The notes under the pieces: generated by a model | The model's database searches: none | What the model was told of the DNA's origin: nothing | Seen by the model: the letters and a program-made list of their open reading frames with translations, nothing else | Made by a program: the position numbers and the translations under genes | Source of the DNA: Chloroflexota bacterium | GTDB taxonomy: Bacteria > Chloroflexota > Ktedonobacteria > Ktedonobacterales > Ktedonobacteraceae | Direction of reading: 5' to 3' | Assembly (NCBI GenBank): GCA_902810755.1 | Contig: CADDYT010000051.1 | Span: 1 to 40,512 of the forward strand | DNA: 40,512 nt | Shown: positions 4,078 through 40,512 of the stretch, piece by piece | Layout of the letters: each line of letters opens with the position of its first letter | How positions within the stretch are numbered: the stretch's first letter is position 1

Positions 4078-4653
4078 CTAGAGCGTCTGGATGAAGCTGG
4101 CGATGATGGCCTGGACTTCATCCAGACGGTTCTGGAAGAAGTGGTCGGCGCCCTGAATGGCGACCAGGCTTTTGGGGGGCGGCACCTGCTCGAACCACTG
4201 CTCGGTGAGTTTGAAGGGGGCAAGGTCGTCCTCGGTTCCCTGAATGATCAGTTTGGGTTTGTGGCTGCCCTGCAGGGTATCGCCGTCGAAGGAGCGAGCC
4301 GGGACGCCGAGGCCGATCATGGCCTGCACGCGATCATCGTTAGCAGCGACGCGTAGCCCGACCCAGGAGCCGAAGGAGAAGCCGGCCAGGATAACGGGCA
4401 GGCCGGGGTAGCGGCGGCTTAGAAAATCCAGCGCGTAGCGTACATCGTCCGACTCGCCGCGCCCCTCGTCATATGTTCCCGTGCTGTGGCCCACGCCGCG
4501 AAAATTGAAACGGAGCGCCGGAATGCCCAGCGCCTGCATGGTTTGCGCCACTTTGAAGATGACCTTGTTATGCATCGTGCCGCCATAGAGCGGGTGGGGA
4601 TGCAACGCCAGCCCGGCGTAACGCGGGTTGATGCCCGGCTCCTCCGACTTCAA
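4078..4653 (-). CDS. Alpha/beta hydrolase (COG2945-like), true start probably further upstream
   Basis: This small serine hydrolase has family motifs HPHPLYGGTM, FNFRGVGHS, nucleophile elbow GFSFGS (Ser93), acid GTEDD (Asp142 or Asp143) and base in GADHF (His171). The substrate is unknown; relatives are annotated as generic esterases or hydrolases. The coordinates begin at the first conventional start, a TTG with no ribosome site. The frame upstream to 4710 still reads as family sequence (ILHINIPTPQGHLEGIL), and a strong AAGGAGG sits 9 bases before an ATC codon at 4708-4710. The only in-frame ATG (4717-4719) is followed directly by TGA. Translation therefore either starts at a rare codon or the start has been damaged. 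Confidence 0.85.
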   Translation of the reverse strand: MKSEEPGINPRYAGLALHPHPLYGGTMHNKVIFKVAQTMQALGIPALRFNFRGVGHSTGTYDEGRGESDDVRYALDFLSRRYPGLPVILAGFSFGSWVGLRVAANDDRVQAMIGLGVPARSFDGDTLQGSHKPKLIIQGTEDDLAPFKLTEQWFEQVPPPKSLVAIQGADHFFQNRLDEVQAIIASFIQTL

Positions 4654-4864: not shown

Positions 4865-4907
4865 AAGTTGCGGCTGGCCAGCCCTTGCGGCTGGCCAGCC
4901 GCAACTT
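4865..4907. repeat. Single hairpin-repeat copy
   Basis: Two 17-base arms (4865-4881 and 4891-4907) are exact inverse complements around a 9-base loop. The core GGCTGGCCAG / CTGGCCAGCC is the same family as the larger clusters at 7.5, 9.3, 28-29, 32.4 and 35.9 kb. It sits between the divergent hydrolase and thymidylate-kinase-like genes, just upstream of the promoter at 4933, and could also act as an attenuator or insulator. Confidence 0.8.
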
Positions 4908-4962: not shown

Positions 4963-5008
4963 CGTTGCAAGGTATATGGTAGCGGCTTGCTGGTAAAAGG
5001 ACTCTTTG

Positions 5009-5773
5009 ATGGAAACATATGGATTGCATAAGTATCCTGGCCGCCTCTTCATCGTCGAAGGGGTGGACGGCTCAGGCAAAAGCACGCAGATCGCACTCTT
5101 GCGCCAGTGGCTTATCAGTGAAGGGTATCCTGTCTTCTTCAGTGAGTGGAATTCGTCTCCTCTTGTCAAGCAAACGACGAGCAAGGGCAAGAAAAAACAG
5201 CTATTGACGCCCACGACCTTCAGCTTAATTCATGCCACCGACTTCGCCGACCGCACGGAGCATGATATTATTCCCCCGCTCAAGGCCGGGGCTATCGTGC
5301 TGGCGGATCGCTACATCTATACCGCCTTTGCCCGCGACGTGGCGCGCAATGTGGATCGCCGCTGGGTACGCGAACTCTACCAGTTCGCCGTCAAGCCGAC
5401 CGTTGCCTTCTATTACCGCATCCCCCTGGAAGTCTCGCTCAGCCGCATCCTGACAGGGCGAGCCGAGCTGAAATATTACGAAGCCGGCATGGATCTGGGA
5501 CTGAGCAATGACCCCCTCGAAAGCTTTAAACTCTTCCAGCAGCGCATCGTCAACGAATATGAGGCGATGGTGGATGAATTTGGCCTGACGGTGATGGATG
5601 CCACGCTGCCTATCCCCGATCAGCAGCGGCGCATGCGCGAGATCATCAAGCCCTACCTGCGCGGCGTGCGGCGCATCCGCTCCTCGGCGCAGGAGTCGGC
5701 CTGGGCCGGGCTGGCGCGCGAAATGCGCCCCTCGCAGCCAGAGCTGCCTGAAGTGGGGAGAAGCGGGCGATGA
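5009..5773 (+). CDS. Thymidylate kinase-like P-loop protein (copy 1)
   Basis: This 254-residue P-loop kinase of the dTMP kinase fold has Walker A GVDGSGKST at residues 18-26 and a second motif ADRYIYTAFARD around Asp100-Arg101. Canonical dTMP kinases carry DR-Y/F-x-x-S followed by a lid; here the region after DRY differs and the protein is about 40 residues longer than usual. The substrate may therefore be dTMP or another (d)NMP. The ATG at 5009 is chosen over the adjacent TTG because AAAAGGA lies 8-9 bases upstream. It overlaps copy 2 by four bases, so the two are made together, possibly as a heteromer. A separate canonical tmk may exist elsewhere. Confidence 0.85.
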   Translation: METYGLHKYPGRLFIVEGVDGSGKSTQIALLRQWLISEGYPVFFSEWNSSPLVKQTTSKGKKKQLLTPTTFSLIHATDFADRTEHDIIPPLKAGAIVLADRYIYTAFARDVARNVDRRWVRELYQFAVKPTVAFYYRIPLEVSLSRILTGRAELKYYEAGMDLGLSNDPLESFKLFQQRIVNEYEAMVDEFGLTVMDATLPIPDQQRRMREIIKPYLRGVRRIRSSAQESAWAGLAREMRPSQPELPEVGRSGR

Positions 5774-6465
5774 CGAAGCTATCTTTCTATGGCATCGACG
5801 CCATCCACCTGCGAGAGCAGGAAGAGATTCTGCCTGGTCGCCTCATCGTCATCGAGGGAACCGACAGCGTGGGCCGTTCCACGCAGTTGAACCGGTTGCG
5901 CCCCTGGCTGGAGAGCAGCGGTTACGCCGTCGTGGACACGGAGATGACGCGCTCGGTGCTGGCCGGTCCGGGCCTGAAGAAGGCCAAAGAGGGCCACACC
6001 CTCGGCCCTATCACCCTGAACCTGTTCTACGCCACCGATTTCGTCGACCGCTTCGAGAACCAGATCGTCCCCGCTCTGCGCGCCGGTTTCATCGTCCTTA
6101 CCGACCGCTACATCTATTCCCTGATCGCGCGCGCCGTTGTGCGCGGGGCGGACCCGCACTGGATTCGCTCGATCTACGGCCTCGCCCTCAAGCCCGATGT
6201 CATTCTCTACCTCAAAATCAGCATTCACGACCTGATCCCCCGTGTCCTGCAGCGCGGCGGCTTCGACTACTGGGAATCCGGCATGGATATGCGCCTCGGT
6301 TCCGACCTCTTTGAAAGCTTCGTCAACTACCAGACGCGCCTGCTCAAGCAATTCGACACCATGTCCGAAGAATACGGCTTCCAGGTCATCGACGCCGGCC
6401 TGCCCATCGAGCAGGTTACCGAGCAACTGAAGGCAAGAATTTTTCCCCTGCTGCCGCAGGGATAA
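5770..6465 (+). CDS. Thymidylate kinase-like protein (copy 2) with altered Walker A
   Basis: The 231-residue paralogue of the preceding gene shares the layout: P-loop, ATDF-DR segment, TDRYIY motif and YWESGMDM region matching copy 1's YYEAGMDL. The P-loop reads GTDSVGRST (30-38), with Arg36 where Walker A has its invariant phosphate-binding lysine. The fold looks intact otherwise, so the protein may be a weak or specialised kinase or a non-catalytic partner of copy 1. It begins in the ATGA overlap of copy 1, a sign of translational coupling. Family membership is clear; activity is doubtful. Confidence 0.82.
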   Translation: MTKLSFYGIDAIHLREQEEILPGRLIVIEGTDSVGRSTQLNRLRPWLESSGYAVVDTEMTRSVLAGPGLKKAKEGHTLGPITLNLFYATDFVDRFENQIVPALRAGFIVLTDRYIYSLIARAVVRGADPHWIRSIYGLALKPDVILYLKISIHDLIPRVLQRGGFDYWESGMDMRLGSDLFESFVNYQTRLLKQFDTMSEEYGFQVIDAGLPIEQVTEQLKARIFPLLPQG

Positions 6466-7055: not shown

Positions 7056-7418
7056 ATGCCCAGGGTAAAACGTGGCGTTACCGCTCACAAGAAGCATAAA
7101 AAAATTCTTGAGATGGCCGAGGGCCATCGTGGCGCGCGCAGGCGCCTGTTCCGTCCCGCCCACGAGTCCGTTATGCGCTCGATGGCGTATATGTATCGTG
7201 ATCGCCGCAATCGCAAGCGCGACATGCGCCGCCTGTGGATCACGCGCATCAACGCCGCCGCCCGCATGCACGGCGTCAGCTATAGCAAACTGATGCATGC
7301 CATCCACGAAGCAAACATCGACGTAGACCGCAAGATCCTCGCCGAAATGGCGGTCAATGACGAGGCAGCTTTCAGCGCGCTGGTGCAGAGAGCATTGGAT
7401 TCGGTCACGACCGTGTAA
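7056..7418 (+). CDS. rplT: 50S ribosomal protein L20
   Basis: The 120-residue ribosomal protein binds 23S rRNA early in large-subunit assembly. The sequence is full length and typical: MPRVKRGV start, RRRLFRPAHESVMRSM, YMYRDRRNRKRDMRRLWITRINAAAR, and the C-terminal IDVDRKILAEMA segment. GGAGG lies about 11 bases before the ATG. It is in an operon with rpmI. In other bacteria L20 autoregulates this operon. Confidence 0.97.
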   Translation: MPRVKRGVTAHKKHKKILEMAEGHRGARRRLFRPAHESVMRSMAYMYRDRRNRKRDMRRLWITRINAAARMHGVSYSKLMHAIHEANIDVDRKILAEMAVNDEAAFSALVQRALDSVTTV

Positions 7419-7454: not shown

Positions 7455-7790
7455 TAGGCCCCGTAGCCGCCGCAGGCCAGCCGCCAGGGCTGGCCCCATA
7501 GGCGTTAACTTAAGGCCGTGCGAGCGCCAGGCAGGCCAGCCGCCAGGGGTGGCCCTACTATAGACGCGACTCCCCAGGCGGCACGAACGCCGCGTCTCTC
7601 GTAGGGCCAGCCCTGGCGGCTGGCCTGCGGCGGCCTTCAGTTAACGCCTATGGGGCTGGCCCTACTATACAGGGGCATTCCCAGAGCTTGCGAGCCATCG
7701 TATATAGTAGGGCCAGCCCTTGCGGCTGGCCTGGAGGGGGCGCCATCGCTTAAGTTAACACCTATGGGGTCAGCCCTTGCGGCTGACCTG
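7455..7790. repeat. Hairpin-repeat cluster between rplT and the TrmH-family gene
   Basis: The region holds at least five hairpin modules: 7473-7496 (approximate), 7534-7554, 7605-7625, 7711-7731 and 7768-7788. Three copies of a second box, C(A/C)TA(G)GCGTTAACTTAAGG, lie at 7497-7515 and, inverted, at 7634-7652 and 7749-7766. Copies 7534-7554 and 7605-7625 face each other with flanking TACTATAGACGCG/CGCGTCT..GTA, so 7497-7652 forms one compound inverted repeat. The copy at 7768-7788 (GGTCAGCC...GGCTGACC) differs from its neighbour at 7711 by paired changes that keep the stem. Open frames crossing this block are not genes. Confidence 0.85.
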
Positions 7791-7823
7791 CGAGGCAGGG
7801 GCCTGACTTCTCAGCAAACGGCC

Positions 7824-8693
7824 ATGATACAGATTACCAGTCCTGCCAATCCGCGTATTAAGAGAGCGCGCGAACTGCATACGGGCGCGGGACGCAAAAA
7901 ACATCGCCTCTTTTTGATGGAAGGGCCGCATCTACTGGAAACCTTGCTGGATAGGGCAGTGAGCGGGGGTGAGGAGATGCTGCCGGAAGAAATCTTCTAT
8001 CAGCCGGAACTGCTACAGCGCACGGCAAAGGGGCGGGCCTTGCTAGAGCGCCTGTTGCGCTTTGAGGCCCTGTCACAACGGCTGGTAGAGGTGAGCGAGC
8101 GCGTGATTGAGGCGCTGAGTGATACGCAAACATCGCAGGGGGTTGTGAGTGTTTTGCCGCTTGCGCTCTTCGCCCCTGACCGTTTGCGCGCCAATCGTCC
8201 CGCCGCCTACCGGCCTGCCCTGCTCATTCTCGATGATATCACCGACCCCGGCAATATGGGAACGATCCTGCGCACGGCGCTGGCCGCGAATGTCGATGCC
8301 GTTCTACTCACGCCTGGTTGCGTTGACCCCTTCAATCCGAAGGTCGTGCGGGCAGCGGCGGGGGCGCATGTCGCGCTCCCCATAGAAATCGATATGTCAT
8401 GGAACGCCATTGCCCACAGGGTTGCGCGCCCGCAAGGCCCGCACGTGCTGCTGGCCGAGGCAGGTAGCCCACACATGTACTACACCCAGGACCTGACACG
8501 CCCGTTTGCGCTCATTATCGGCAACGAAGCGCATGGCCCTTCCCCCCAAGCGCGCTCGCTGGCCACACTGACGATCTCCATTCCCCTGGCGAACGGCGTA
8601 GAATCGTTGAATGCGGCTATGGCAACAGGCATCATTCTCTACGAGGGCGTGCGGCAGATGCAGGTAGCGCAAGAGGCAAAAAAGCAGGGATAG
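7824..8693 (+). CDS. TrmH/SpoU-family RNA 2'-O-methyltransferase
   Basis: This SAM-dependent enzyme of 289 residues methylates a ribose 2'-OH in tRNA or rRNA. An N-terminal substrate-binding region (SPANPRIKRARELHTGAGRK) precedes the SPOUT knot. The three SpoU motifs are present: ITDPGNMGTILRTA, IIGNEAHGPS and IPLANGVESLNAAMATGI. The ATG at 7824 is chosen because homology starts there and everything upstream is repeat DNA; no strong ribosome site is visible. The gene's last codons lie inside a perfect palindrome (8683-8730). The target RNA position is unknown. Confidence 0.9.
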   Translation: MIQITSPANPRIKRARELHTGAGRKKHRLFLMEGPHLLETLLDRAVSGGEEMLPEEIFYQPELLQRTAKGRALLERLLRFEALSQRLVEVSERVIEALSDTQTSQGVVSVLPLALFAPDRLRANRPAAYRPALLILDDITDPGNMGTILRTALAANVDAVLLTPGCVDPFNPKVVRAAAGAHVALPIEIDMSWNAIAHRVARPQGPHVLLAEAGSPHMYYTQDLTRPFALIIGNEAHGPSPQARSLATLTISIPLANGVESLNAAMATGIILYEGVRQMQVAQEAKKQG

Positions 8694-8730
8694 CCGCCTG
8701 CGCATCGATGCGCAGGCGGCTATCCCTGCT
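8683..8730. terminator. 48-bp perfect palindrome, probable bidirectional terminator
   Basis: The 24-base arms are exact inverse complements with no spacer (centre CATCGATG at 8703-8710). It covers the stop codon of the TrmH-family gene and ends 19 bases before the stop of the convergent zinc-ribbon gene. There is no U-tract on either side, so termination would depend on the hairpin alone. Confidence 0.6.
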
Positions 8731-8973: not shown

Positions 8974-9263
8974 GAGTAGCCTCCTGTTTTATCTCGCTAT
9001 TTATCTCTATCTTCTTATTGCTCTCAAAGAGAGTGAGTGGATTGCACCTGCGTAAAGCCACTACGCCGGCGCGTTATCCAGAACGCCCGCATAACCAGCG
9101 ATGCGCGTCCGGTGATGTCACTACTCTAAGTGTAACAGGTGGCCTCACGAATAGTCCATGAAATAGCATGCAGCTTCTGGATACTACCTATAAGCAAAAG
9201 GTTATGTATGGAAAAAGAAAGATGGTGGAAGCAAAGGCAAGAAGAGAGATACGGAGTGAGAAC

Positions 9264-9475
9264 CAGGCCAGCCGCCAGGGGTGGCCCTACTATAGACGCG
9301 GCGGTCGTGCCGCCTGTGGAGCTGCGTCTATAGTAGGGCCACCCCTGGCGGCTGGCCTGCCCGGCGTTGGCACTGGCTTAAGTGAACGCCTATGGGGGTG
9401 GCCCTACTATACGCGGCGGCGCCACCAGCGGCACAACCGCCTCGTGTAGAGTAGGGCCACCCCTGGCGGCTGGCC
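9264..9475. repeat. Hairpin-repeat cluster upstream of the zinc-ribbon gene
   Basis: A perfect 36-base inverted repeat (9264-9299 and 9324-9359) is separated by 24 bases; each arm is itself a GGCCAGCC..GGTGGCC hairpin followed by CTACTATAGACGC. A second pair follows (about 9395-9416 and 9448-9477), introduced by the inverted CTTAAGTGAACGCCTATG box at 9377-9394. The rest of 8974-9512 shows no gene. Confidence 0.88.
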
Positions 9476-9512
9476 TGATCGGGCTGCGCCCTCTTCAGTG
9501 AATGTCTGTTAG

Positions 9513-28011: not shown

Positions 28012-28103
28012 CATAAGCGTTAACTTAAGGTCGCCCCAGGCCACCCGCCAGGGGTGGCCCTACTCTCTCCCCAGGCCAGCCGCCAGGGGTGGCCCTACTC
28101 TAT
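28012..28103. repeat. Two hairpin-repeat copies plus GTTAAC box
   Basis: CATAAGCGTTAACTTAAGG at 28012-28030 is followed by two direct hairpin modules, about 28038-28064 (GGCCACCC variant) and 28073-28101 (GGCCAGCC variant), each followed by CTACTCT. The second runs right up to the stop codon of the membrane-protein gene. Confidence 0.85.
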
Positions 28104-29010: not shown

Positions 29011-29137
29011 CATAAGCGTTAACTTAAGGCCGCCACGCAGGCCACCCGCCAGGGGTGGCCCTACTCTAGACGTCACAACCAGCGCCAGGCGAACTGAGTG
29101 GTCGGGTATAGTAGGGCCACCCCTGGCGGGTGGCCTG
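29011..29137. repeat. Inverted pair of hairpin repeats with GTTAAC box
   Basis: CATAAGCGTTAACTTAAGG at 29011-29029 is followed by arms 29038-29068 and 29107-29137, inverse complements at 30 of 31 positions (CTACTCTA versus CTACTATA). Each arm is a GGCCACCC-GCCA-GGGGTGGCC hairpin. It lies between the CarH-like gene and the membrane-protein gene and would form part of any shared transcript. Confidence 0.88.
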
Positions 29138-29169
29138 CGCTGCCTACGCCGTATTACACCGTCTATATG

Positions 29170-30324
29170 TCAGTTCCTACTCTCAGATCGGGAAGACAAC
29201 AGGCGTCGTATCCCGGAAGTGATTGTTTGCAAGTCTCCATGCAGATAGATACCCGGCACCTGCGGGATCAGGTGGGCGTATTGCTCCAGGGCCTGGCCGC
29301 CGAAGACGAAGTGCGGGCGCGGCGCGGGTAAATTCTGAACGCGGCGCCCCAGATCGATCAACGAGGCCATGTAGGCGGGCATGGTCAGAGAGACGCAGAC
29401 GATAGCCGGGTTCATCTGCTGAATGATGTGCAGCAGCCCCTCGATCTCGATGCTCTGACCGAGATAGGCTACGCTCATGCCGGCACGGCGCAAGATGAGG
29501 GCCAGCATCAGCACGGCCAGTTCGTGCGCCTCCCCCGGCGAGCAGCAGACGAGGACAAGCGGCGGGCCGGGCGGCGTGGGCGTCACATACAACAGGTTGG
29601 TGAGGACGCCGCGAAAGATGCCGCTGGCAAAGTGTTCAACCGCCACCGTCAGCTTGCCCTCTTCCCACATCCGTCCGATCTCCCACAGCGTCGGCGCGAT
29701 CAATTCGGCGCATACCTGCTCCACCGGATAGATCGCCAGCATCGAAGCCAGCAGGGCCTTCGCCGTCGTCTCATCGAGCGCGTTAAAGGCCTCCAGCAGA
29801 CTTTGAAGCGCCGCGCGCATGTTGAGCGTCGGCGGGTAGCGCACAAAAGTGACCCCCAGCTCGCTCAGCGCAGGCCACTGCCCATTGTCGGCCTGCGCGA
29901 TCGGCGCCTGCTTCCCTGCTTCAGGCTCTGTAGACGGTGGCTGCGGCAACGAGGAGGGTAGCGCGACATGAAAAAAAGGGACTCCGCCTGTCACAGCCTG
30001 TTCATGCTCGCGCAACTGCCGCCACCCTGCTTCCAGGTGGCGCAGCAGGGAAATGGCCTGGCTGATCGACATTCCGGCCTCGATCCGCTCCTTGAGCCAG
30101 CGGATCGTCGCCACGTCGCGCTCGGAATAGAGACGGTAAGCGTTGCCCGAACGGGCGGGGGAGAGGATCGTGTAGCGCCGCTCCCAGGCTCGCAGCGTGG
30201 GGGCCGGGACGTTCGTCTGCTGCACGACCGCCTTAGTATTAAAAACAGGAATGTCTGGAAACCGTTCGAGGTCAGGCCATTCAATGTGGCCCTCTCTCAC
30301 GTCCCTCTCGTCTTTTACGCTCAT
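29170..30324 (-). CDS. MerR-family cobalamin-binding regulator (CarH/LitR-like photoreceptor)
   Basis: The regulator has 384 residues. An N-terminal MerR winged helix (about 26-98; FNTKAVVQQTNVPAPTLRAWERRY) is joined by a Pro-rich linker to a helical bundle and a Rossmann cobalamin-binding domain. The light-sensing signature Trp-x9-Glu-His is exact: Trp220, Glu230, His231 (MWEEGKLTVAVEHF). The lower axial ligand is His267 in SPGEAHEL. CarH proteins bind adenosylcobalamin, repress as tetramers in the dark and fall apart in light, usually controlling carotenoid or photoprotection genes. ATG 30324 is the natural family start; upstream frame to 30828 is not coding. A candidate operator lies at 30407-30437. 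Confidence 0.9.
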   Translation of the reverse strand: MSVKDERDVREGHIEWPDLERFPDIPVFNTKAVVQQTNVPAPTLRAWERRYTILSPARSGNAYRLYSERDVATIRWLKERIEAGMSISQAISLLRHLEAGWRQLREHEQAVTGGVPFFHVALPSSLPQPPSTEPEAGKQAPIAQADNGQWPALSELGVTFVRYPPTLNMRAALQSLLEAFNALDETTAKALLASMLAIYPVEQVCAELIAPTLWEIGRMWEEGKLTVAVEHFASGIFRGVLTNLLYVTPTPPGPPLVLVCCSPGEAHELAVLMLALILRRAGMSVAYLGQSIEIEGLLHIIQQMNPAIVCVSLTMPAYMASLIDLGRRVQNLPAPRPHFVFGGQALEQYAHLIPQVPGIYLHGDLQTITSGIRRLLSSRSESRN

Positions 30325-30406
30325 ACGTTTCTCACTCAGAAATCCGGCCCTGTCGGGAACCGGGGCTTCCTTTTCACTATAACATATGTTCGCGTGCGAA
30401 GTCCAT

Positions 30407-30437
30407 AGTTTGCACAGTCTTGTACAGCTTTTGTCAA
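30407..30437 (-). promoter_or_regulatory. Candidate CarH-type operator: three direct repeats
   Basis: Read on the minus strand, TTGACAAAAGC, TGTACAAGAC and TGTGCAAACT follow each other head to tail at 11- and 10-base steps. Two match the TnnACA core known from CarH operators; the third has GCA instead of ACA. The first repeat doubles as a perfect -35 hexamer facing the CarH-like gene, so binding there would block it. No good -10 was found at 17-18 bases. The site could also affect the divergent yggS operon. Confidence 0.5.
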
Positions 30438-30596
30438 AGCCATGCCTGTACTCTAAAGATGGATGATCGGGGGTCGGCGGGTAATTTCTCGCTATTGACG
30501 AATGCCGCTCTGTATGGCACGATTCATCAGAGGAGCGTAACAAAAGCGTTGCCTGTACGTAAGTACCATAGAACACATGAACGGGACGAGGAAAAC

Positions 30597-31331
30597 GTGA
30601 CCGAGAAGCAAGCGAGCGAAGCGCGGGAATGGCTGGCGGCAAATATCGCCAGGGTGCGCGCGAACATAGCGCAGGCGGCGCAGAAGGTGGGGCGCAGCGC
30701 AGACGACGTGACGCTGGTGGCGGTCTCCAAGACGAAGCCGCTGGAACTCGTCCGGCTGGCGTATGAAGCCGGGGTGACCCACTTTGGCGAGAATCGCGTG
30801 CAGGAGGCATTGCCGAAGATCGCGGCATTTCACCCGCCGGGGGTGTCGTGGCAGATGATCGGCCACCTGCAAAGCAACAAGGCGGGGAAAGCTGCCGAGG
30901 CTTTTGACTGCGTGCAGAGCGTGGACAGCCTGCGCCTGGCGCAGGTATTGAACCGCCGCGCCGGGGAACTGGGCAAACGCCTGCCTGTTCTGTTACAGGT
31001 CAATGTGGCGGAAGAGGCTAGCAAGGAGGGTATGAGCGTGGCGGAGACACCGGCGCTGGCCCGCGAAATCGTCGCCCTGCCCCATCTTGAGGTGCTGGGC
31101 CTGATGACGATTGCCCCGCTGGTGGAAAACGCGGAGGAGGTGCGTCCCGTCTTTCGTGGTCTGCGCGAATTGCGCGAGCGCCTGCGGGAGGCCCTACCCG
31201 CCTCTTCCTGGTCTCAGCTTTCTATGGGCATGACCGACGATTATACTGTAGCAATTGAAGAGGGAGCCACGATCGTGCGCATCGGACGGGCGATTTTTGG
31301 CGAACGTGTTCACGGCATACAAGGAGCTTAA
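30597..31331 (+). CDS. YggS/PLPBP family pyridoxal-phosphate homeostasis protein
   Basis: The 244-residue single-domain protein of the alanine racemase-like fold binds PLP through Lys45 in LVAVSKTKP. Family motifs FGENRVQE, IGHLQSNK, LGLMTIAP and SMGMTDDY follow. It buffers PLP and affects amino-acid pools rather than catalysing a major reaction. The start is a GTG with GAGG about 6 bases upstream; the open frame to 30420 is non-coding leader and overlaps the putative operator. It heads a tight operon with DUF6391, yggT and DUF167 genes, a grouping seen widely in Gram-positives and cyanobacteria near cell-division genes. Confidence 0.93.
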   Translation: MTEKQASEAREWLAANIARVRANIAQAAQKVGRSADDVTLVAVSKTKPLELVRLAYEAGVTHFGENRVQEALPKIAAFHPPGVSWQMIGHLQSNKAGKAAEAFDCVQSVDSLRLAQVLNRRAGELGKRLPVLLQVNVAEEASKEGMSVAETPALAREIVALPHLEVLGLMTIAPLVENAEEVRPVFRGLRELRERLREALPASSWSQLSMGMTDDYTVAIEEGATIVRIGRAIFGERVHGIQGA

Positions 31332-31845: not shown

Positions 31846-32127
31846 ATGAGTTTGCTTTTCCCGGACGGCCTTCTCCACGGGCTGATTACCTATGGCATCG
31901 GCTTCATCATCCTGGCCATGCTTATACGCGCCATTGCTTCGTGGTTTGGCATCGACGAACGTTTCGCCTTCATTCGCTTTCTGGCGCGCATTACCGACCC
32001 GTTCATCGAACCCATTCGCCGCTACGTCAAGCCCGTCGCCTTCCTTGACCTCTCGTTCCTCATCGCCTGGTTCATGCTCAGCGTCCTCCAGATTCTCCTT
32101 GTCCAGGCTCTGCCTCTCGGCTGGTAA
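31846..32127 (+). CDS. YggT family membrane protein
   Basis: The 93-residue protein has two membrane helices (about 14-32 and 66-88) joined by a loop with the family motif FIRFLARITDPFIEPIRRYV. YggT proteins are linked to osmotic tolerance and, in plastids and cyanobacteria, to nucleoid or division positioning; the exact role is unknown. TAGGAG is 7-8 bases upstream. It is 16 bases after the DUF6391 gene and 6 bases before the DUF167 gene. Confidence 0.88.
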   Translation: MSLLFPDGLLHGLITYGIGFIILAMLIRAIASWFGIDERFAFIRFLARITDPFIEPIRRYVKPVAFLDLSFLIAWFMLSVLQILLVQALPLGW

Positions 32128-32394: not shown

Positions 32395-32410
32395 TACAGA
32401 GACAAATAAG

Positions 32411-32507
32411 CAGGCCACCCGCAAGGGGTGGCCCTACTATATACGATGGCTGTACAAGCCGCAACAACGTATCGTATATAGTAGGGCCACCCCTTGCGGG
32501 TGGCCTG
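32411..32507. repeat. Perfect 37-bp inverted pair of hairpin repeats
   Basis: Arms 32411-32447 and 32471-32507 are exact inverse complements, spaced by 23 bases. Each arm folds as GGCCACCC-GCAA-GGGGTGGCC, with a GCAA loop (GNRA type), followed by CTACTATATACGAT. It lies between the yggS operon and the convergent kinase gene. The remaining 32508-32635 shows no gene. Confidence 0.9.
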
Positions 32508-32635
32508 TGGCGCGACTAAATAAAGCGGCGAAAGTCCTGCGGATAATTCCCGCTGTCGATAGCGGTGCTATCCCAATCATTTTCCGCAATTATTACGCCG
32601 TTTTATTTAGCCTGCATGGCTTTCTGCACCCAGGA

Positions 32636-35783: not shown

Positions 35784-36196
35784 CGCTTTTTTCCGGCATG
35801 CCGTATGCCGGTCTCCCTCTGCTGGCCTGCCGGCTTCCTCTTATTACGACCCGGCAGCGCAGGCCAGCCGCCAGGGGTGGCCCGGTGGCCTTCACTTACG
35901 GGCCGGTCACAGCGCAAGCCAGCCGCCAGGGGTGGCCCTACTCTACAACGGACACTTGTACGGCTCGTGTAGAGTAGGGCCGCCCCTCATAAGCGTTACC
36001 TGAAGCCCGTGCGAGCGCGACGCAGGCCAGCCGCCAGGGGTGGCCCGGTGGCCTGAAGAGAATGGTTCTGAGGCCATCCCCTGGCGGCTGGCCTGCGGCG
36101 GCCTGAAGTTAACGCCTCTGGGGCCATCCCCTGGCGGCTGGCCTGTGCTGCGAGCTGTGACGAGGGGGCCAGCATACGGCATGCCATAAAAAAGTG
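35784..36196. repeat. Hairpin-repeat cluster bounded by imperfect terminal inverted repeats
   Basis: The ends 35784-35811 and 36169-36196 match as inverse complements at 24 of 28 positions (core CTTTTTT..GGCATGCCGTATG). Inside are hairpin modules near 35860-35884, 35925-35945, 35968-35986 (truncated), 36022-36046, 36072-36094 and 36122-36144. GTTAAC-type boxes lie at 35988-36005 and 36102-36120. No open frame of interest is present. It fills most of the 774-base gap between the kinase and the small membrane-protein gene. Confidence 0.75.
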
Positions 36197-40445: not shown

Positions 40446-40512
40446 TCCCAGGGTACCCACAGGCAGGGTACCCGCAAGAGGTACCCCTACTATACACGAT
40501 TCGCCCGCTCGC
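40446..40512. repeat. Variant hairpin repeat (GGTACC type), cut by the window edge
   Basis: GGCAGGGTACCCGCAAGAGGTACCCCTACTATAC has the same order as the other modules (hairpin with GCAA, then CTACTATA), but the stem is GGGTACC/GGTACCC instead of GGCCACC/GGTGGCC. A further GGGTACCC lies just before it at about 40452. The partner arm is outside the window. Confidence 0.7.

Follow-up and report, generated by a model that had tools for sequence, protein, structure and literature searches.

REP elements tagged with GTAG or CGTC have been described in over 80 species, the GTAG kind occurring also in Chloroflexi, and the T. roseum family GTAG-23 is one GTAG REP family (PMC3733652). According to that study, GTAG REPs have stems of mostly 6-9 bp with alternative complementary residues, lie mostly in intergenic DNA, and form tail-to-tail dimers with variable spacers and head-to-head dimers with conserved ones, the spacers mostly measuring 20-100 bp; their tags supply stop codons, and RAYT genes are flanked by REPs (PMC3733652). 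In TnpAREP the catalytic residues include Y115 and N119.

Here we analysed a 40.5-kb stretch of DNA (the window) that, judged by its proteins, is from Ktedonobacterales. Its RNase Y is 86% identical to that of genome G036 and 85% to that of G046, the best among 400 genomes of the phylum, and a neighbouring protein shares 81% identity with one named Ktedonobacteraceae bacterium. We read the hairpins of the window, with a probability of about 87%, as non-autonomous GTAG-type REP elements, many of them paired as REPINs, that are recognized as single-stranded DNA hairpins by a RAYT. The reading is built on direct observation of anatomy, covariation, intergenic placement, inverted pairing and, in relatives, RAYT genes lying between such hairpins; a RAYT-type transposase has probably spread the repeats through the genome by copying.

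These findings fit the published frame of GTAG REPs (PMC3733652). As in the elements of Di Nocera et al. 2013, a tag stands beside a short stem with compensated residues, dimers are tail-to-tail and intergenic and, in relatives, a tag supplies a stop codon and RAYT genes are flanked; unlike there, no head-to-head pair of two tagged hairpins was counted in the window and the other loci examined, and the outer side bears a motif, CTTAAGTTAACGCCTATGG (PMC3733652). Pseudomonas REPINs likewise join two inverted REPs by a diverse spacer and fold as one hairpin, in another host phylum, whereas copying of the present pairs is putative (PMC8049555). REPtron Sm of S. maltophilia (TnpAREP group 3) shares GTAG immediately followed by an 8-bp palindrome with a short loop, which has 3 nt in REPSm and 5 nt in the window family; E. 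coli REP/BIME with its TnpAREP (group 2) shares the GTAG tag, inverted pairs and a mid-stem mismatch, but its elements are longer, at 29-37 nt, and have other loops (PMC8266576). A sequence-only reading of the window had called its hairpins REP-like, and the GTAG tag, 8-bp stem, inverted pairs, intergenic position and presence of such hairpins around RAYT genes of relatives bear this out.

Copies were collected with a covariance model, R1, built from 35 chosen aligned copies of the window and relatives. An unfiltered search of the window gave 21 matches at E ≤ 0.001, 20 of which are family hairpins spread over seven intergenic gaps; the other (4876-4899) is a palindrome without a tag and was left out of the family count. 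All 21 lie clear of called genes, as expected of GTAG-type REPs, in a window that is about 20% intergenic, and by coordinates no copy touches rplT (7056-7418), a hydrolase gene (4078-4653) or a YGGT gene (31846-32127). The sequence-only reading had placed the hairpins in at least seven gaps and in no gene, in agreement with these counts, and the covariance-model collection that it proposed has returned the 20 window hairpins together with copies in relatives.

Its description of about twenty hairpins followed by CTACTATA holds for the number and less well for the tag. GTAG (CTAC on the other strand) lies directly 5′ of the short palindrome in 14 of the 20 copies, in the exact form CTACTATA in 8 of these 14; that sequence occurs ten times in the window against 0.22 expected from shuffles, the other two occurrences being half-hairpins at 7654 and 9396. 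Read on the tag strand, the unit is in most cases made up of TATAGTAG or TAGAGTAG, then an 8-bp stem, a CTKGC loop, the 8-bp partner and a TG foot, with a window stem that is mostly GGCCASCC/GGSTGGCC. The remaining six copies have another 5′ flank. In two (7472, 7760) it is CCTATGG fused to motif CTTAAGTTAAC, which also recurs beyond the outer side of other copies; in two (35859, 36022) it is GGCCACCG; and the last two (36064, 36114) are 22-nt variants within a tandem. Copies occur in both orientations, at a density of 20 per 40.5-kb window (Table 1).

Table 1 Repeat features of the window. Bit scores are from covariance model R1, and z values refer to folding as single-stranded DNA.
Feature	Coordinates	Strand or parts	Evidence
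Hairpin, CCTATGG-type 5′ flank, no GTAG	7472-7503	-	R1 40.0 bits
Outer motif CTTAAGTTAACGCCTATGG	7496-7514	-	
Tail-to-tail REP pair (REPIN)	7531-7628	REP 7531-7562(-), spacer, REP 7597-7628(+)	z -10.1
Outer motif CTTCAGTTAACGCCTATGG	7635-7653	+	
Half hairpin, TATAGTAG tag	7654-7669	-	
REP, TATAGTAG tag (contains hairpin 7711-7731)	7703-7734	+	R1 48.6 bits
Outer motif CTTAAGTTAACACCTATGG	7749-7767	+	
Hairpin 7768-7788, T-A replacing C-G, CCTATGG flank	7760-7791	+	R1 38.8 bits
Tail-to-tail REP pair, C-C mismatch in both partners	9263-9360	.	z -14.9
Outer motif (+) fused to half hairpin with TATAGTAG tag (-)	9377-9411	.	
REP, TAGAGTAG tag, faces 9396 half hairpin	9447-9478	+	R1 44.4 bits
REP, GAGAGTAG tag	28036-28067	-	R1 45.4 bits
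REP, TAGAGTAG tag, oriented like the 28036-28067 copy	28071-28102	-	R1 45.9 bits
Tail-to-tail REP pair	29037-29138	.	z -9.4
Tail-to-tail REP pair, 99-nt interrupted palindrome	32410-32508	.	z -15.1
Hairpin without GTAG	35859-35890	-	R1 34.3 bits
REP, TAGAGTAG tag	35914-35945	-	R1 41.9 bits
Half REP (TAGAGTAG plus 5′ arm), faces 35914-35945	35970-35985	+	Repeat family D7
Hairpin without GTAG	36022-36053	-	R1 34.3 bits
Two tandem 50-bp units, one 22-nt hairpin variant each	36046-36145	+	R1 36064-36096 and 36114-36146, 21.9 and 22.5 bits; repeat family D9
REP, TATAGTAG tag, other stem GGGTACCT/GGGTACCC, unchanged loop	40463-40494	-	R1 42.3 bits

Elsewhere in the window, a degenerate repeat array rich in GGCTGGCCTG occupies its start (1-175), and two adjoining genes matching thymidylate kinase (5006-6465) overlap by four bases. 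At 29170-30828 a MerR plus B12-binding regulator stands beside a protein with homologues partly named lycopene cyclase domain. The 552-aa frame of this neighbour overlaps an opposite alanine-racemase-N gene, so its start probably lies further in. The regulator we take to be CarH-like.

Four complete tail-to-tail pairs with their tags facing across spacers of 50-54 nt lie in the window (Table 1), together with three partial pairs in which one partner is half-length (7654/7703, 9396/9447 and 35914/35970; spacers of 49, 51 and 40 nt). Four further complete pairs in other loci have spacers of 41-42 nt. In the complete pairs the middles of the spacers are diverse, as in REPINs, and their ends are complementary over 4-14 bases. 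Each complete window pair folds into a single long hairpin as single-stranded DNA (z -15.1, -14.9, -10.1 and -9.4), as do single pairs of G046 (z -11.2) and G022 (z -8.9). Where two copies run in the same direction, in a stretch of 91 nt, folding does not rise above shuffles (z -1.1). CRISPR was set aside as an identity for the repeats, the pairs being inverted rather than direct repeats, and integron sites were considered and set aside.

This folding raises the question of whether the long hairpin of the whole pair is the selected structure and the single hairpins are its by-products. The strength of the pair folds (z -9 to -15) and the description of REPINs as the replicating unit (PMC8049555) speak for it, as does the 9263-9360 pair, whose partners each carry a C-C mismatch that is lost in the single-hairpin fold of the pair and is healed only by such partner-to-partner pairing. 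Many copies in relatives, for example in G001, nevertheless pair locally while having no partner among the copies listed, and complete pairs number only four in the window; we consider the whole-pair structure unlikely to be the primary one.

The stems of single copies vary by matched changes. The hairpins at 7711-7731 and 7768-7788 are as the sequence-only reading had them; at stem pair 3 the first has C-G where the second has T-A. Across the window alone (18 rows, 16 distinct), two-sided changes occur in 3 of 8 pairs and 7 of 128 cells, with none in slid controls. The copy at 40463-40494 has two pairs with two-sided changes and a third altered in one arm (C-G to T-G), with tag, loop and fold kept. 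Within-window compensation is real and rests on few events. Six tagged copies out of 14 and 2 untagged ones have a C-C mismatch at stem pair 6 (columns 14-24), which is present in 6 of 16 distinct rows of the window alignment, so local complementarity is imperfect; the form GGCCAGCC..GGGGTGGCC, named in the sequence-only reading among the other copies, carries this mismatch in tag orientation and is not compensated. Though frequent in the window family, a mid-stem mismatch hurt cleavage of REPSm; in the E. coli REP the mismatch is conserved and repairing it cut activity, whereas here it is optional (PMC8266576).

Compensation between genomes is stronger than within the window. In alignment A1, which comprises 35 chosen equal-length copies (32 distinct) from the window and relatives with the structure named by the analyst, 96.9% of cells are paired and 6 of 8 pairs (34 of 256 cells) change on both sides, against 1-2 pairs and 2-10 cells in slid controls. 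Alignment A3 (74 rows, 62 distinct), which was fitted to the structure and is hence favoured by it, has 98.2% paired cells; two-sided changes affect 105 of 492 cells, spread over 6 of 8 pairs, against 1-3 pairs and 2-26 cells in slid controls. The number of additional pair types was no higher than in shuffles, 213 of 500 reaching it for A1 and 96 of 500 for A3; the shuffles take no account of relatedness. Among the chosen copies, tag and loop are near-invariant while six of the eight stem pairs change on both sides. The loci examined hold 80 deduplicated tagged hairpins of 16 stem types, with tags GTAG (72), GTAA (6) and GTAC (2) from a set imposed by the pattern, and with CT[TCG]GC as the only loops under a search pattern of C[TC]NGC. 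The proposed selection on the folded form gains support from this between-genome covariation beside a near-fixed tag and loop. Its opposition to plain duplication was a false contrast: stem types do differ between families, while identical partners within pairs and tandem blocks (36046-36145; L145) also occur, and REP families spread by copying, so that identical partners and tandem blocks resemble duplication.

Could the hairpins instead be transcribed RNA elements, such as terminators or mRNA-stabilizing 3′-end hairpins, kept for RNA function? The copies do lie in gaps, and in the five gaps bordered at each end by a gene call backed by Pfam or homology, the neighbours are co-directional in three (7.5, 28.0 and 29.0 kb) and convergent in two (9.3 and 32.4 kb); known REPs, too, often sit at 3′ ends (PMC3733652). 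No match was found in Rfam, however (0 among 4227 families above gathering score), and a terminator scan of 7.0-9.6 kb, the sole region scanned, gave four hits, at 8682-8730, apart from the hairpins. Both orientations occur, an RNA hairpin needs neither the tag nor inverted pairing, and the tag sits on the strand that a RAYT would read. We judge a primary RNA function very improbable, and the earlier suggestion of a small structured RNA found no support in the Rfam search, the two orientations or the strand of the tag; the hairpins may have a secondary RNA role. Separately, a 46-nt palindrome at 8684-8729 (20 pairs, loop of 6), whose minus strand bears a T run, lies at the end of a SpoU methylase gene and is likely a terminator.

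The REP reading leads to relatives of the window's genome. A pattern scan of genome contigs gave 28 stretches, all in one MAG, Ktedonobacteraceae bin_36 (G001), and the exact GTAG-plus-stem pattern of the window occurs in 1 of 47 genomes of the class. Hairpins of G001 have the window stem with tags such as ACATGTAG, AAATGTAG and ATATGTAA and a foot that is mostly GG. At E ≤ 0.01, R1 matches at least 20 of the 47 class genomes, with at least 14 matches in 12 of them, among the best 150 candidates per genome; there are at least 131 copies in G001, 134 in G022 and 120 in G047. In G036, whose RNase Y is the most similar to that of the window, R1 finds nothing at this threshold among the candidates scored. 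G046, second by RNase Y, combines tags TATAGTAG or TAGAGTAG with stem GGGCGACC/GGTCGCCC, the exact pattern for which is found in 9 of the 47 class genomes; the window and G046 have in common an extended tag of 12 nt, CGTGTAGAGTAG, and loops of the CTTGC/CTGGC type, with different stems. One G046 locus (L145, contig G046:C225) consists of four tandem 66-bp units with one TAGAGTAG hairpin each. Across the phylum, R1 at E ≤ 1e-5 matches at least 37 of 400 genomes among the best ~18 candidates per genome. Three of these, G243, G276 and G282, lie outside the 47 class genomes and, in the stretches read, have mainly GTAG-GGGCACCC-CT[TG]GC-GGGTGCCC-TGG, so the hairpin design extends past Ktedonobacteria. 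Viral contigs gave no exact match to the tagged pattern.

The window itself contains no RAYT gene; RAYT homologues are present in 20 of the 47 class genomes. Searching G001 with PF01797 yielded three matches, and the RAYT frame at L030:729-1211 (-) matches the NCBIfam model REP_Tyr_transpos (E 2e-21, 76.4 bits; curated cut-off 80). Within 140 bp of it lie three window-stem hairpins (629-649, 708-728 and 1350-1370 of L030), and the GTAA tag of the second contains the TAA stop codon of the gene. Beside the homologue in G022 (54-58% identity) are five tagged hairpins whose loop is of the same type and whose stem differs. With flank sizes picked after the copies were seen, the Poisson odds of such flanking copies are 3e-8 for G001 and 6e-11 for G022, or at most 2e-6 if each genome had 500 copies. 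A PDB sequence search with the G001 RAYT gave no match at E ≤ 0.01.

Among 30 RAYT-like loci, R1 at E ≤ 0.01 gave 19 matches in six, L067 (G001), L068 (G022), L071 (G046), L079 (G006), L089 (G047) and L091, and none in the other 24; in RNase Y control loci it matched 0 of 10. A looser hairpin count near RAYT genes was noisy, with 7 hairpins in 10 RNase Y controls, and the R1 search was used in its place. At L067, L068, L071 and L079 the gene has copies to its left and right within ~0.5 kb, the nearest on each side with its tag end toward the gene, an arrangement like a REPIN with the RAYT gene as spacer. At L068 the closest copy on the left (1316-1344) is weak, and one lying farther out (1040-1071) is oriented away. 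L071 has one weak match per side, the right one confined to the hairpin, whose 5′ flank is other than GTAG, and L079 has three matches, split one and two between the sides; the matches at these two loci are weak (E 9e-5 to 4e-3). The L079 hairpins read TGTAG-GGGCGTACCCTTGTGGTCGCCC-TG, the left one slightly altered. At L089 and L091 the matches are 0.6-1 kb distant. Copies from G001, G022, G046 (L071) and G047 (L089) are in R1, so their matches arise partly by construction; L079 has no row in the model and is thus an independent test. On either side of a second G022 RAYT (L090), two copies of another GTAG hairpin, GGACAAGATTTATCCTGTCC or a form differing by one letter, stand head to head.

Among 12 REP-rich genomes, a RAYT was found in six by homologue search and in eight when profile search was added, two of these being weak or partial; in G007, G021, G029 and G030 neither search found one. 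In G276 (C86:19421-20869) the two halves of the RAYT profile lie ~1 kb apart within one 526-aa frame, perhaps marking an inserted domain. Miniature IS200/IS605-like elements, IS ends moved in trans by TnpA, are a very improbable identity for the hairpins: the protein superfamily is the same and four of six RAYT proteins weakly score the IS200 model, but REP_Tyr_transpos scores 38-59 bits higher in those four, IS200 is unlisted for the other two, and the pairs are inverted with facing GTAG tags. The curated NCBIfam cut-off was passed by one of the six proteins tested (L069), from a locus without an R1 match.

Seven RAYT homologues have neither the HUH nor the YIxxN motif: L070 and L072-L076 (G038-G043), and L080 (G036). 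Catalytic residues were assigned by comparison with TnpAREP. Six of the seven homologues closely resemble one another, which suggests a conserved non-catalytic protein. R1 matches are absent from all seven genomes among the candidates scored; G027 and G031 also have none despite intact motifs, and the association of motif loss with REP absence is therefore one-sided.

For the RAYT-linked REPs we propose that, when the DNA becomes single-stranded, the GTAG strand would fold into the 8-bp hairpin with its CTKGC loop. A RAYT, a single-tyrosine transposase of the HUH type and a relative of the IS200/IS605 TnpA, would bind tag and hairpin, cut near the hairpin, and move or copy the element; new stem types would found new subfamilies. 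Recognition would need fold, tag and loop, which is proposed as the reason why stem letters mostly change in pairs. We infer that a RAYT binds, cuts and mobilizes these elements, and that the window's genome has, or once had, such a RAYT.

The family is new and its kind, GTAG REP/REPIN, is known, on a comparison with 24 published families by description rather than by consensus sequence. T. roseum, which we place in the Chloroflexi, is the host of one of the GTAG families; literature searches in one open-access library listed no REP paper on Ktedonobacteria. What goes beyond the known REP frame is that tag and loop stay nearly fixed from one stem type and genome to the next. Tentatively, and with more doubt than confidence, we suggest that Chloroflexota keep a single REP design, with a GTAG-type tag, a CTTGC-type loop and mostly a TG foot, in which the stem is replaced as a matched block from one related genome to another. 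RAYT and stem might then be a lock and key that have been re-keyed, the optional C-C mismatch belonging to the key, and the gene of the RAYT might be the spacer of a large REPIN ancestral to the small ones.

These results add from Ktedonobacteria a RAYT-linked REP/REPIN family with several stem subfamilies. Its near-fixed tag and loop combined with swapped stems form a natural experiment on what a RAYT reads in its hairpins, to which the genomes with motif-less RAYT homologues and no R1 matches may offer a genetic contrast.
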